Below, piece after piece: positions 1,210 through 5,088 of a stretch of DNA of 64,000 nucleotides; positions within the stretch are counted from its first letter, which is position 1, and every line of letters starts with the position of its first letter. The notes beneath the pieces are model-generated. The model searched no databases, was not told the DNA's origin, and worked only from the letters and a program-made list of their open reading frames with translations. Location of the stretch: contig PLWQ01000012.1 in the NCBI GenBank assembly GCA_003165595.1, positions 457,542-521,541 of the forward strand, written 5' to 3'. This stretch comes from Fibrobacterota bacterium. GTDB lineage: Bacteria > Fibrobacterota > Chitinivibrionia > Chitinivibrionales > FEN-1185. The position numbers and the translations under genes are program-made.

Positions 1210-1239
1210 GGGCGGGTGTTCTCATCCGCCCGTTTTTTT
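1210..1239 (+). terminator. Rho-independent terminator
   Basis: GGGCGG (1210-1215) pairs with CCGCCC (1226-1231) around a ten-base loop and is followed by a seven-T run. It separates the lipoprotein gene from the sigma-factor operon. Confidence 0.85.
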
Positions 1240-1318
1240 AGGGCGACCGCTAAACCCGCGAAACCGCGTGAGCGATTCCTGATTTGCTGCGTGTCTTAAA
1301 AGTGAGCGGCAAAAACGT

Positions 1319-1816
1319 ATGGCACCAGATCCCGGACCGGTTCCGGCGCAAGAATTGTACGAGAAGTACGGGTTTCTGATCTACCGCACCTGCCGGCGCA
1401 TTCTCGGCTCCGACGACGACGCCAAGGACGCGATGCAGGAGGTATTTCTCAAGCTGCTGGAGCACTACGGCTCCATACGCAACAAAGAACGGACCGTGCC
1501 GTGGATATTTATGGCGGCCAAGCGTCACTGTTTCAACCTGCTGCGAAACAACAGGAAGTTTGTCGACGGGATTGATCCCGACGAAACAGCGTCGCGAATC
1601 GACGAGGGAAAGCGACTCGACCAGAAAGACCTGATTCGGTTGATTTTTATAAATCAGAATGGGAACGTACGGGATGCGGTGTATTACACCTATGTCGAGG
1701 AATTCGATCAGGAAGAGATCCGAAAGATAACGGGCCAGTCGCCCGCCACGATCCGGCGGAACCTCAAGAGGTTCAAGGACAGCCTTCGAGGCATCAGAAA
1801 GAGACTCGGCGTTTAA
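1319..1816 (+). CDS. ECF-type RNA polymerase sigma factor
   Basis: A 165-residue sigma70-family protein of extracytoplasmic-function size. Region 2 (about residues 10-75) has the hallmark DDAKDAMQEVFLKLLEH helix that contacts core polymerase and the -10 element. Region 4 (about 105-160) ends in a helix-turn-helix, QEEIRKITGQSPATIRRNLK, for -35 recognition. The next gene starts one base after the stop and encodes a zinc-finger membrane protein of anti-sigma type, the usual arrangement for an ECF sigma and its inhibitor. It presumably directs transcription of its own operon, including the caspase-like gene, but I see no convincing ECF promoter pair upstream. There is no strong ribosome-binding site before the ATG. 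Confidence 0.92.
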   Translation: MAPDPGPVPAQELYEKYGFLIYRTCRRILGSDDDAKDAMQEVFLKLLEHYGSIRNKERTVPWIFMAAKRHCFNLLRNNRKFVDGIDPDETASRIDEGKRLDQKDLIRLIFINQNGNVRDAVYYTYVEEFDQEEIRKITGQSPATIRRNLKRFKDSLRGIRKRLGV

Positions 1817-1817
1817 T

Positions 1818-2573
1818 ATGCAGAAGCATCCGTTTGACAAAATAGACCTGATCGCCTTTGCCGCGGGAGATATCCGCGAGGACCGGTGCGCCGCCATGGA
1901 GCGGCACGTTGCTTCGTGCGAGCCGTGCCGCCTGTTCATTGCATCGCTGGCGTCCGAAAAGGCCTCGTTTCTCGCGTCGCATCCGTACGAGAGGACGGGA
2001 GCGCTGCCGGCGCAACCGTCGTCGGCACAGCGGTTCTCTTTCTTCCGCAGTCAGGTCTACGCGCTCGCAGCCACGCTTCTCCTGTTTGCCGGCGCAGGGT
2101 ACCTATACCTTTCGCACACGGGTAACCCGGGCATTCGCACCAAAGGCGATACCGCGCTCAAGATCTATGTCAAGAACCGGCAGGGCGCTGTGGAGCGGCG
2201 TGACGGCAATGAATACTCTACGGGAGAAAAGGTCCAGTTCCTGTATTCCTGCGGCAACGACAACAACTTTGCGTTGATAAGCATCGATACGACCGGCGGG
2301 ATCACCACCTATTTTCCGGCGTCGGGCGATTCATCGATGGTGCTGGAGCGAGGCCGCGACATCCCGCTTCCCAACTCCATCACGCTCGACAATTACACCG
2401 GACCCGAAGTCTTTGCAGGCGTATTTTCGAGCCGACGGTTCTCCCTTGCAGGCCTCAGGCAGCTCCTTACCGCCTCCCTCGTCAAGAGCGGCCTGTCCGA
2501 TTCCCTCCGCCTGCGCGCGGACGGCTTCGTCGTCGTGTCGCATCTGCTTACCATTAAGCAAGCGAACCCATGA
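1818..2573 (+). CDS. Membrane anti-sigma factor (zf-HC2) with a DUF4384-like C-terminal domain
   Basis: A 251-residue protein. Residues 30-37 hold the HxxxCxxC zinc-binding signature (H30, C34, C37; 'ERHVASCEPC') of zf-HC2/ZAS anti-sigma factors. One membrane span lies near residues 78-98. The exported part (about 110-225) carries a strand-rich region with 'GEKVQFLYSCGNDNNFALI' and 'FPASG', which resembles DUF4384 domains often found beside bacterial caspase-like proteins. The layout suggests a cytoplasmic sigma clamp, a membrane helix and a periplasmic sensor. It follows the sigma gene by one base and overlaps the caspase gene by four (ATGA), so translation is probably coupled. Confidence 0.85.
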   Translation: MQKHPFDKIDLIAFAAGDIREDRCAAMERHVASCEPCRLFIASLASEKASFLASHPYERTGALPAQPSSAQRFSFFRSQVYALAATLLLFAGAGYLYLSHTGNPGIRTKGDTALKIYVKNRQGAVERRDGNEYSTGEKVQFLYSCGNDNNFALISIDTTGGITTYFPASGDSSMVLERGRDIPLPNSITLDNYTGPEVFAGVFSSRRFSLAGLRQLLTASLVKSGLSDSLRLRADGFVVVSHLLTIKQANP

Positions 2574-4333
2574 TGAGCCCGAGAATCCTTTCCCTTCTCA
2601 TCGGCCTAGCCGCTTTTCACGCGGTGAGTGCCGACCGGTATGCGCTGCTCGTGGGCAACAGCACGGCCGCGGGAAATTTTGCGACCCTCAAGTATGTGCA
2701 CAACGACCTTTCGTCGCTGCAGAACATCCTCACCGATTTCTGCGGCTTTTCGCCGCAGCACGTGGTTCTGCTGTACGACCGGTCGCCTTACGATCTCGAC
2801 CAAGAACTGGCCGACATGGTCGGTCGCCTTCCCGCCGGCAGCGGCAATCTCTTTTTGTTCTACTACTCCGGACACGCCGACGCCACCGCGCTCAAGATGG
2901 GGGACGCAGATTTCCCTCTTGCAAAGCTCAAGGAAAAGATCACGTCGTTTCCGGCCGACATCCGCATCGGCGTGTTCGACGCGTGCCAGAGCGGCAGCTT
3001 CACGCGCATAAAGGGAGGCACGCTTTCCGAGCCGTTCCTGTTCCGCGACGACGGCAAGACAAAAGGCCAGGTAATCCTGTGCTCCAGTTCGATCAACGAA
3101 AACGCTCAGGAATCGGACCTGTACGGCAATTCGGTGTTCACCTTCCACTTTGTTAATGCGCTCCGGGGCAGCGCCGACATGGCCGGAGACGGCCGCATCA
3201 CACTGAGCGAGGCGTACCAGTATTCCTACAACCACACCATTTCGAGCACCGCGGGCAGCGCCGGCGGCGTGCAGCATCCTTCGTACCAGTTCCGCATCCA
3301 GGGTGAAGGCGATATCGTGCTCGCCGACCTCAACATCCGCACCCGCGGCATACTGCTTTCCGGCGACGTTGAAGGCGACATCACCGTTGTGAGCGACAAG
3401 GGTTCGGTCGTGGCCGACCTGACTAAGAAACCCAATGCAGCGGTGATGATCGCGCTCGGGCCGGGCGCGTACAAGGTGATGAACGCCCAAGGCGGCCTGC
3501 GGTTTCTGGCACGCGCCGGCGTTACCGAACAATCGGTTGCCACAATCCGGAAAAGCGATTTCCATCCCGTGCAGTCGTCACCGTCAAGTGCAAAGGGCGA
3601 AGAGCGCGGTCGCGGAGCGCAAGTCGGGATCACCCTGTCGGGCGGAAGCGGCGCCTACGATCTTTCCAGTTTGTCCAGCGGGCTGTCCAGGCAATTCGCC
3701 GGATTCGCCGCATTTTCGATGAGTCCCCCGTTTTCGTACAAAAAATACCAGGTGATGCCGCTGGTTGCAGGCGAGGTCATCGTGCGAAACCGGTTCGAGG
3801 CTCACCTCGGATTCGGCGGAATTGCAGCCGCTTCCTCCGCCGACTGCGCCGGACAGCGGTTCAACCAGCCGGACAATTCGTTCTACGCCTGCCGGTTGCA
3901 CGTGCAACAGACGCTCAACGTAAAGATCATCGATATCGGCGGGGGGTACCGGTTTCAGAACAGGTTCGTGAGGAATGCGTCGATTCATGCCGGCATCTGT
4001 GTGTATGAACCCGAGCTTACGGTCTCCTCTGTTTTCACCGATTCACTGTACAATGTGGAAACCGCCGGCTCCGAGACACGCACCGCAACGGCGGTGGTGC
4101 CCTACGCCGCCCTCGGCTACACGTGGCCGGCGCTCAGATTTCTTGACATCGGCGCCAAAGTGCGGTACCGGTACCAGTACCGGCCCGTTGATTTCAGCGC
4201 CGGATATTCGGGCGCGCTGCCCGAGTCCGCGGTGCCGGCGACATCGCCGCCCTCGTGCAGCTTCGGCGGGTTCGACGGAAGCGTTTTTATCAATATTCAC
4301 CTGGCGTTTGAGAGACGTGAGGAGCAGCCATGA
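2570..4333 (+). CDS. Caspase-like (C14) protease with a C-terminal outer-membrane barrel-like domain
   Basis: A 587-residue protein with an N-terminal signal peptide (about residues 1-21). Residues about 23-230 form a p20-like fold: 'YALLVGNS' first strand, catalytic His in YYSGHAD (H102) and Cys in FDACQSG (C139), both of the caspase/metacaspase dyad. Residues about 235-330 look like a small beta domain. Residues about 345-587 alternate polar and apolar short strands rich in Gly and aromatics and end in 'FINIHLAF', the pattern of an outer-membrane barrel. It overlaps both neighbours by four bases. Predicted location is the periplasm or outer membrane. The protease assignment is firm from the motifs; the barrel is an inference from pattern alone. 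Confidence 0.85.
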   Translation: MMSPRILSLLIGLAAFHAVSADRYALLVGNSTAAGNFATLKYVHNDLSSLQNILTDFCGFSPQHVVLLYDRSPYDLDQELADMVGRLPAGSGNLFLFYYSGHADATALKMGDADFPLAKLKEKITSFPADIRIGVFDACQSGSFTRIKGGTLSEPFLFRDDGKTKGQVILCSSSINENAQESDLYGNSVFTFHFVNALRGSADMAGDGRITLSEAYQYSYNHTISSTAGSAGGVQHPSYQFRIQGEGDIVLADLNIRTRGILLSGDVEGDITVVSDKGSVVADLTKKPNAAVMIALGPGAYKVMNAQGGLRFLARAGVTEQSVATIRKSDFHPVQSSPSSAKGEERGRGAQVGITLSGGSGAYDLSSLSSGLSRQFAGFAAFSMSPPFSYKKYQVMPLVAGEVIVRNRFEAHLGFGGIAAASSADCAGQRFNQPDNSFYACRLHVQQTLNVKIIDIGGGYRFQNRFVRNASIHAGICVYEPELTVSSVFTDSLYNVETAGSETRTATAVVPYAALGYTWPALRFLDIGAKVRYRYQYRPVDFSAGYSGALPESAVPATSPPSCSFGGFDGSVFINIHLAFERREEQP

Positions 4334-5088
4334 AAACAGTTCTTGCGATACTGTCGTTGGCCGGACTGCTGCTTCTGGCCTCCTGCGGCGCCTACCCCAC
4401 GGCCAGCGGCACCCCGCAGAACCCGCCGTTTCCGGCCACGCAAAGTATCCTGCCGCTTGCGATCGGGAACTCGTGGTCATATTCATTGACAGCATACGAC
4501 TCACTCGGCAATAGAATCGCCCCGAGCAGAGCCGACCTGGAACTTACGCTGCCCGGCGGATACGGCCTGATCGGCGACACGCAGCTGGTAACGCTTTCGT
4601 GGCAGAACTATAATCAGAATTTTGCGGCGTACGTTTATAAATACGAGTGGGATAGCCGCGACAGCGGCGCACTTGTGGTACACCGGGGAGACTATCCGCA
4701 GGGCAGCCGAGGGCTTTATGTAGTCGGGTGGTATCGCGGCACGGCAACGCATCTGCTTGCCGCGGAAAAACTCTGGCTCGCCTATCCCGCCGACAGCGGC
4801 TCCACGTGGGCATATGCGCCGGACTCCTCCGGTGATACCGCCTCCGCCGTAATCATGGAAGTCATTTCGACACACGCGTCCTTCTTTGCACCGGACGCCC
4901 AGTCCATGGCGGCAGGCAGGTTCATAGACTGCTACCTTTACAAAGAGACAGGCGCGGGTTACAAAAGTTACTATTACTACACTCCGGATATCGGCTGTGT
5001 CGGATATTGCCGGTACACGGGAGACAAGCTGCGGGAGACATACATTCTTACCGGCTTTGCGCAAGGTTCGGGTCGCTCCCAACGTTAA
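4330..5088 (+). CDS. Putative lipoprotein, last gene of the sigma/caspase operon
   Basis: A 252-residue protein with a clear lipobox (LLASC, Cys19), so it is probably lipidated after export. GAGGAG five bases before the ATG supports the start, which overlaps the caspase stop codon by four bases. The mature part is rich in Tyr, Ser and Gly and opens with 'LPLAIGNSWSYSLTAYD', a phrase common in bacterial surface lipoproteins of unknown function. I do not recognise a family beyond that. Its place at the end of a translationally coupled operon suggests it is a partner, substrate or sensor for the caspase-barrel protein. No terminator is obvious in the 197 bases before the convergent Nif3 gene. 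Confidence 0.8.
   Translation: MKTVLAILSLAGLLLLASCGAYPTASGTPQNPPFPATQSILPLAIGNSWSYSLTAYDSLGNRIAPSRADLELTLPGGYGLIGDTQLVTLSWQNYNQNFAAYVYKYEWDSRDSGALVVHRGDYPQGSRGLYVVGWYRGTATHLLAAEKLWLAYPADSGSTWAYAPDSSGDTASAVIMEVISTHASFFAPDAQSMAAGRFIDCYLYKETGAGYKSYYYYTPDIGCVGYCRYTGDKLRETYILTGFAQGSGRSQR

Follow-up and report, generated by a model that had tools for sequence, protein, structure and literature searches.

A conserved gene module of an ECF σ factor, a membrane anti-σ factor and a probably exported caspase-like protease in Fibrobacterota and Myxococcota-like genomes

We analyzed a stretch of 64,000 nucleotides (the window) from contig PLWQ01000012.1 of a Fibrobacterota bacterium (assembly GCA_003165595.1; 5.39 Mb, 42 contigs), which contains an operon encoding an extracytoplasmic function (ECF) σ factor, a zinc-finger anti-σ factor with a predicted membrane helix, a caspase-like protease that is probably exported, and a lipoprotein. 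The first three genes almost certainly constitute a genuine module, since they are kept together in most sampled Fibrobacterota loci and in a majority of related loci from a second, Myxococcota-like group of genomes. Based on these observations, we propose that the caspase could make the first cut in the anti-σ factor encoded next to it. To our knowledge, few substrates of bacterial caspases are known and these enzymes are mostly discussed as death proteases. A conserved operon that joins a probably exported caspase to an anti-σ factor would point to a specific substrate open to testing and to a role in signalling.

Results

Gene order and conservation in Fibrobacterota

A preliminary description, made from the sequence of the window alone, had reported four genes with a one-base gap and two four-base overlaps, and this arrangement proved exact. 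All four open reading frames lie on the plus strand in the order ECF σ factor, anti-σ factor, caspase and lipoprotein (Table 1). A single base separates the first two genes, while the anti-σ and caspase genes as well as the caspase and lipoprotein genes overlap in the sequence ATGA. Throughout the source genome we found 17 matches to Sigma70_r2, only one to a caspase domain and only one to DUF4384. The latter two both fall into this operon beside one σ factor gene, and the coincidence of two such rare matches indicates a clustering beyond chance.

Conserved order and co-occurrence had been suggested by the preliminary description as a test for a system. A caspase match was found in 134 of 167 Fibrobacterota genomes, from which we fetched 60 regions, chosen for their high scores and, in addition, to sample different families; together with the window, they make up the 61 Fibrobacterota loci considered here (locus numbers carry the prefix L). 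The related loci are recorded as Fibrobacteres, Chitinispirillaceae or Chitinivibrionales. Using single window proteins as queries, all three genes were detected in 54 loci, and with profiles built from the loci themselves they were found in the same order and on the same strand in 56. Three of the five misses are located at contig ends (L050, L080, L086), and in two others (L073, L074) the caspase has no neighboring σ/anti-σ pair. The pairwise distance matrices of the three proteins, compared for 54 loci, are correlated (Mantel r of 0.89, 0.91 and 0.91, compared with permutation maxima of 0.13-0.16); this comparison of sequences shows co-inheritance, which alone does not imply function. When paralogues were matched, 76 of 127 comparisons gave one and the same nearest locus for the three genes, at a random expectation of about a quarter or less, which is better than chance, if imperfect. 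The ECF and anti-σ genes of the sister genome G001 are separated by a small lipoprotein-like frame (L003:250-717).

Conservation outside Fibrobacterota

A scan of the contigs of relatives returned 265 candidates. The best 80 of these comprise 19 Fibrobacterota and 61 entries recorded as Deltaproteobacteria, Myxococcota, Proteobacteria and the like, and the gene trio is present in many of them. We searched the whole genomes of 19 of the 61 non-Fibrobacterota and fetched the region around every one of the 110 caspase matches with E ≤ 1e-12. With the pair counted as upstream if encoded on the same strand, with the σ factor no more than 2.5 kb and the anti-σ factor no more than 1.8 kb from the caspase domain, 68 of these 110 matches in the 19 Myxococcota-like genomes carry it. 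The other 42 show the pair downstream (four), only an anti-σ factor (nine, five of them at contig ends), only a σ factor (five), neither (19), or neither at a contig end (five); close to four of the 19 with neither (L272, L276/L318, L301 and L306), a pair is present but arranged differently. Caspase scores fall into two groups separated by a gap, 77 above 180 bits and 33 below 100 bits. Since both groups include caspases preceded by the pair (53/77 and 15/33, respectively), the association extends beyond the close family. Seen from the anti-σ factor, 49 of 59 matches with E ≤ 1e-30 in the 19 genomes lie beside a caspase match and ten do not, as counted by hand from their positions. Some genomes harbor multiple copies: in a strain-named Pyxidicoccus record (L132), the trio occurs at eight of 15 caspase matches.

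A chance neighborhood of unrelated genes is refuted by an order that has been conserved in two groups despite caspase domains that are mostly only 34-53% identical between their loci, and we consider it practically excluded.

Two further observations concern individual records. The contigs of L115 and L165 are titled as Klebsiella pneumoniae metagenome-assembled genomes and carry caspase modules like those of Deltaproteobacteria records, so the record names may be wrong. At L317:4384-5660, an ECF gene and an anti-σ gene of the same type are followed by a frame that by eye resembles a Ser/Thr protein kinase, not a caspase.

The caspase-like protease

The third gene product matches Peptidase_C14 with 35.9 bits (Pfam cut-off 21.4). 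A Foldseek search with its structure model reached MALT1 at E 2.2e-9, and the nearest solved structures were MALT1, metacaspases, legumain and caspases. In a fold comparison, Arabidopsis metacaspase 4 scored Z 22.0 (root-mean-square deviation 2.8, 209 residues aligned), tied with the rows for caspase-7 and caspase-3, while sequence matches in the PDB mostly cover the first half of the domain. The catalytic His/Cys dyad is intact in all 171 caspases checked (61 from Fibrobacterota and 110 from elsewhere), and both pocket Asp residues are found in 159 of them (61/61 and 98/110, respectively). In a profile alignment, these Asp residues correspond to residues of metacaspases. Thus, the fold, the dyad and a two-Asp acidic pocket suited to a basic P1 residue characterize the protein as a C14 enzyme of the metacaspase/orthocaspase type. 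Two papers state that metacaspases cut after Arg or Lys and name Asp95 and Asp211 as pocket residues of a described enzyme (PMC8283722, PMC6426788). Judging from its pocket, the caspase of the operon is likewise predicted to cut after Arg or Lys.

Hydropathy, the structure model and the terminal residues point to a signal sequence, and the protein is probably exported. Its C-terminal region is predicted to form an outer-membrane β-barrel, based on long strands modelled with a predicted local distance difference test (pLDDT) value of at least 90 in 18 of the 19 blocks that make up residues 351-540. No barrel was among the 50 matches shown for each fold search; the caspase domain fills these lists, which consist of its own relatives.

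The σ factor and the anti-σ factor

The σ factor matches Sigma70_r2 with 48 bits (Pfam cut-off 24) and the NCBIfam model TIGR02937 with 62.8 bits (cut-off 42.9) over residues 11-157 of 165. Regions 2 and 4 of σ70 are both recognizable, the latter with 19.1 bits, below its cut-off of 25.7.

The anti-σ factor of the window has the HxxxCxxC motif within an N-terminal helical domain, as expected for a zinc-finger anti-σ factor, and it probably binds and inhibits the cognate σ factor. It scores 21.7 bits against zf-HC2 in Pfam, just below the cut-off of 22.2, and 22.4 bits against DUF4384, below the cut-off of 27, so that we refer to its C-terminal domain as DUF4384-like. Both names find support in aligned relatives, which match these families at E ≤ 0.1 (zf-HC2 in 37 and DUF4384 in 39 of 53). 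A fold search with the periplasmic domain gave only weak immunoglobulin (Ig)-like matches with Z scores up to 8.4, which are not diagnostic. DUF4384 is listed as an accessory domain of 23 cyanobacterial orthocaspases in PMC8283722, indicating that DUF4384 and caspase domains keep company.

Each zinc ligand is retained in 30 of 57 aligned Fibrobacterota anti-σ factors. About half of these proteins have lost the ligands while the remaining module is retained, as in L065, L066, L069, L072, L090 and other Fibrobacter-type loci, and also in L040, L057, L061 and L064.

A Lys/Arg-Gly motif next to the membrane helix

A Lys or Arg followed by Gly is found just outside the membrane helix in all 57 aligned Fibrobacterota anti-σ factors and in 71 of 77 caspase-adjacent anti-σ factors from elsewhere. 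In the structure model, this position falls into a poorly ordered stretch that separates the helix from the folded domain: residues 101-110 have a mean pLDDT of 58, compared with 94 for the next block. The linker in front of the helix (residues 61-80) is also poorly predicted. The first-cut site of a protease specific for basic residues would be expected to resemble this arrangement.

The specificity of this motif was tested with 18 anti-σ factors whose genes are not immediately followed by a caspase gene in the same orientation; for 11 of these, the region fetched is free of caspase matches. Seven of these 11 carry the motif, and we therefore rejected the idea that it is specific to caspase neighbors; it is a property of the anti-σ family that does not depend on a neighboring caspase.

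Promoter motif and candidate target genes

A terminator-like hairpin is located between the upstream lipoprotein gene and the operon, a feature that carries little weight alone, since ten such sites occur in 7 kb compared with 8.4 in shuffled sequences. It is followed by an ECF-type promoter-like site, whose two halves would act as –35 and –10 elements, and by the ATG of the ECF gene at position 1319. This succession suggests that the operon probably has its own transcription start. Upstream of the ECF genes of related loci, we identified TGAGCG-N16-GTGTC or near variants in one lineage and GTAACA-N-GGTGTT in another. Of 55 upstream regions, 31 contain a strict form, compared with an average of 0.04 and at most one in 50 shuffles; the pattern had been chosen after inspecting the same sequences that were scored. 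Because the motif precedes the operon in these 31 loci, the circuit is probably autoregulated.

The genome of the window contains five exact matches to the motif, and none were found with the reversed control; about 2.6 are expected by arithmetic at equal base frequencies, so individual sites may be due to chance. One match is the operon itself. Another precedes an exported-looking protein of at least 476 amino acids, whose 50%-identical relative in G001 is also preceded by a site. Two are found upstream of a small lipoprotein-like protein and a protein with LVIVD repeats, and one is located inside a frame on the opposite strand. Two of the four sites in G001 fall inside genes. As far as these sites indicate, the candidate regulon is small, and by eye its candidate members look exported. 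A large regulon was rejected, as a looser pattern yielded zero to three sites per genome in 11 genomes, several of them the operon itself, compared with zero to two for the reversed control. One candidate target lipoprotein (L186:1576-1977) resembles radical SAM-associated lipoproteins (TIGR04134, 29.3 bits, below the cut-off of 39.8).

Variable genes behind the caspase

By eye, the lipoprotein encoded at the end of the window operon begins with a lipobox-like sequence (LASC), and no Pfam or NCBIfam model matched it. Its gene is found only in 11 of the 61 Fibrobacterota loci, and it was therefore rejected as a core partner and is regarded as a local addition. Another 11 loci (L043, L049, L050, L053-L056, L059, L062, L063 and L067) carry genes for an LpoB-like activator of peptidoglycan synthase and an exported-looking protein 3′ of the caspase. 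Ten of these also have a separate small barrel-like gene, and ten have a longer lipoprotein-like gene; exported-looking, barrel-like and longer lipoprotein-like genes were named by eye, while LpoB was confirmed with Pfam for L043, L053, L054 and L062. By neighborhood only, these tails tie the module to the upkeep of the envelope or peptidoglycan. We also asked whether LpoB might be controlled by this promoter in the window clade, where a loose pattern gave three motif-like matches in seven loci, none of them convincing.

A weak second Sigma70_r2 match lies outside the window, in a minus-strand frame of 418 amino acids (contig positions 457251-457445) about 100 bases before its first position.

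Table 1. Positions of the operon genes and associated features in the window; residue numbers refer to the encoded protein.
Feature	Position	Strand	Remarks
Terminator-like hairpin and T run	1210..1238	+	3′ of the upstream lipoprotein gene (298-1182)
ECF-type promoter-like site TGAGCG-N16-GTGTC	1269..1295	+	same motif 5′ of the ECF gene in related loci
ECF σ factor, 165 amino acids	1319..1816	+	Sigma70_r2, TIGR02937
Anti-σ factor, 251 amino acids	1818..2573	+	zinc-finger domain, one predicted membrane helix, Ig-like/DUF4384-like domain predicted periplasmic
HxxxCxxC zinc-ligand motif, residues 30-37	1905..1928	+	
Predicted membrane helix, residues 77-100	2046..2117	+	structure model
Lys109-Gly110, proposed cleavage site	2142..2147	+	conserved, juxtamembrane linker
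β domain, residues 113-247	2154..2558	+	DUF4384-like, weakly Ig-like fold
Caspase-like protease, 587 amino acids	2570..4333	+	probably exported, predicted C-terminal barrel
Caspase domain, residues 23-253	2636..3328	+	catalytic His102 and Cys139, pocket Asp46 and Asp137
β-rich middle domain, residues 250-334	3317..3571	+	structure model
Predicted transmembrane β-barrel, residues 350-577	3617..4300	+	structure model, terminal residues
Lipoprotein, 252 amino acids	4330..5088	+	no known family; present in the 11 loci (of 61) closest to the window

Discussion

The preliminary description had proposed an envelope-sensing circuit that includes the lipoprotein. The envelope part of this proposal fits our results, since the envelope is the predicted location of two core products out of three, an LpoB gene accompanies the module in one clade, and the candidate targets look exported by eye; the lipoprotein as a core component did not hold up. 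We infer the remaining steps, namely the trigger, the cellular locations, the partners in binding and cleavage, and the actual operation of autoregulation. In the three-gene envelope-signalling module proposed here, the anti-σ factor would hold the ECF σ factor inactive at the inner membrane and expose its Ig-like, DUF4384-like domain to the periplasm. Upon a disturbance of the envelope, the exported caspase, an enzyme of the metacaspase/orthocaspase type with intact catalytic residues and a predicted outer-membrane barrel, would cut the anti-σ factor at the juxtamembrane Lys109-Gly110. A site-2 (M50) protease of the same genome would then complete the cleavage, and the freed σ factor would transcribe its own operon together with a few genes for exported proteins. 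The source genome does contain a match to Peptidase_M50 (209.7 bits), which says little because all 14 of 14 control genomes match as well. This chain of events turns the stress-triggered proteolysis suggested in the preliminary description into a specific first cut of the anti-σ factor by the caspase. It is the account that we favor, while holding it to be somewhat less probable than an even chance.

Several points weigh against this account. An outer-membrane anchor would keep the protease away from its supposed substrate, and it is just as conceivable that the caspase is an output of the σ factor. The preliminary description had named caspases regularly found without the σ pair as a counter-indication, and this is partly the case, as away from contig ends two of the 61 Fibrobacterota loci and 19 of the 110 caspases elsewhere have no adjacent pair. 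The presence of Lys/Arg-Gly in seven of 11 related anti-σ factors without a caspase match suggests that the motif may be structural or serve another protease, unless these anti-σ factors were substrates of caspases encoded at other sites in the same genomes. Conversely, the motif is absent from the alignment in six of the 77 caspase-adjacent anti-σ factors outside Fibrobacterota, including L207 (the same locus as L095), whose caspase retains the dyad. Finally, one pocket Asp is missing, replaced or unaligned in 12 of the 110 caspases outside Fibrobacterota. We also note that the related ‘Deltaproteobacteria’ loci L095-L097 possess anti-σ factor and caspase and lack Lys/Arg-Gly.

In a further version of the model, the caspase would be sensor and first-cut protease in one, with the barrel as the sensing device. 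Assembly into the outer membrane would then keep the caspase away from the inner membrane, whereas a failure of the barrel assembly or of the outer membrane would leave it in the periplasm to cut the anti-σ factor at Lys/Arg-Gly. We regard this version as unlikely, if worth considering. If true, the σ factor would report directly on outer-membrane assembly via the caspase, and this in two bacterial groups.

Among the alternatives to a first cut by the caspase, a role as a mere output ranks close behind and has a substantial likelihood. The anti-σ factor would then sense a ligand or damage via its Ig-like domain and be cut by ordinary proteases, and the σ factor would raise an envelope protease acting on other proteins. 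The motif upstream of the entire operon probably places the caspase under control of the σ factor, most anti-σ relatives without a caspase carry Lys/Arg-Gly all the same, and the variable tails (lipoprotein, barrel-like gene, LpoB) themselves resemble outputs. What such a role leaves unexplained is the constancy of the anti-σ/caspase pairing (56/61 loci and 49/59 strong anti-σ matches), while the genes behind the caspase change from clade to clade; a simple target would be expected to vary more. The next in rank, which we judge improbable, is an anti-σ factor that restrains both partners, its DUF4384-like domain binding and inactivating the caspase, or a caspase that signals by binding instead of cutting. 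The company of DUF4384 and orthocaspases in cyanobacteria, as far as described in PMC8283722, is compatible with such contacts, as are the co-varying distances of anti-σ factor and caspase (at r 0.914 slightly above the other two pairs), but a purely binding role would not need the dyad that all 171 caspases have kept.

Least probable of these, and in our view very unlikely, is a suicidal caspase controlled by the pair in programmed cell death or phage defence. The caspase fold itself and the many caspase genes of some genomes (15 matches in one) would agree with it. The genome of the window has a single caspase match, and the protein appears from its model to be exported and barrel-anchored; both points speak against it. 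PADLOC returned nothing for the four operon proteins except the σ factor at E 0.044, which is not a meaningful match, and phage defence was rejected on this ground.

A full-text literature search found no description of an operon of ECF σ factor, anti-σ factor and probably exported caspase; its coverage did not extend to the main ECF classification paper or to the majority of subscription papers. The nearest case in print that we met, described in PMC10028731, is the type III-E CRISPR system, in which the caspase-like Csx29 cuts Csx30, an inhibitor of the ECF-like σ factor CASP-σ. The likeness is that a caspase-like protease cuts, or in our case is proposed to cut, the inhibitor of an ECF-like σ factor encoded at the same locus. 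According to the same text, Csx29 is an RNA-guided TPR-CHAT enzyme acting with Cas7-11, whereas here a classical C14 domain is probably exported and joined to a predicted barrel; and unlike Csx30, the anti-σ factor is a membrane protein with a zinc finger and a DUF4384-like domain. The four operon proteins, which are the window proteins scanned for this purpose, gave no CHAT, TPR or Cas match. ECF54 σ factors also have a caspase-related protease nearby, in the form of CHAT proteins, as indicated in PMC8999054. With the RseA/DegS/RpoE envelope stress response, a circuit of regulated intramembrane proteolysis, the module shares a membrane anti-σ factor with a periplasmic domain and the proposed succession of a first cut outside the membrane and a second by a site-2 protease (PMC10028731); the first-cut protease would here be a barrel-anchored caspase encoded in the operon and not DegS. 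The caspase itself resembles metacaspases and orthocaspases (C14B) in its fold, its His/Cys dyad and its two pocket Asp residues, and differs from them by a probable signal sequence, a β-rich middle domain and the predicted barrel. If our model is correct, the module would bring a further class of protease into envelope-stress signalling and be a counterpart of Csx29/Csx30 with a different architecture.

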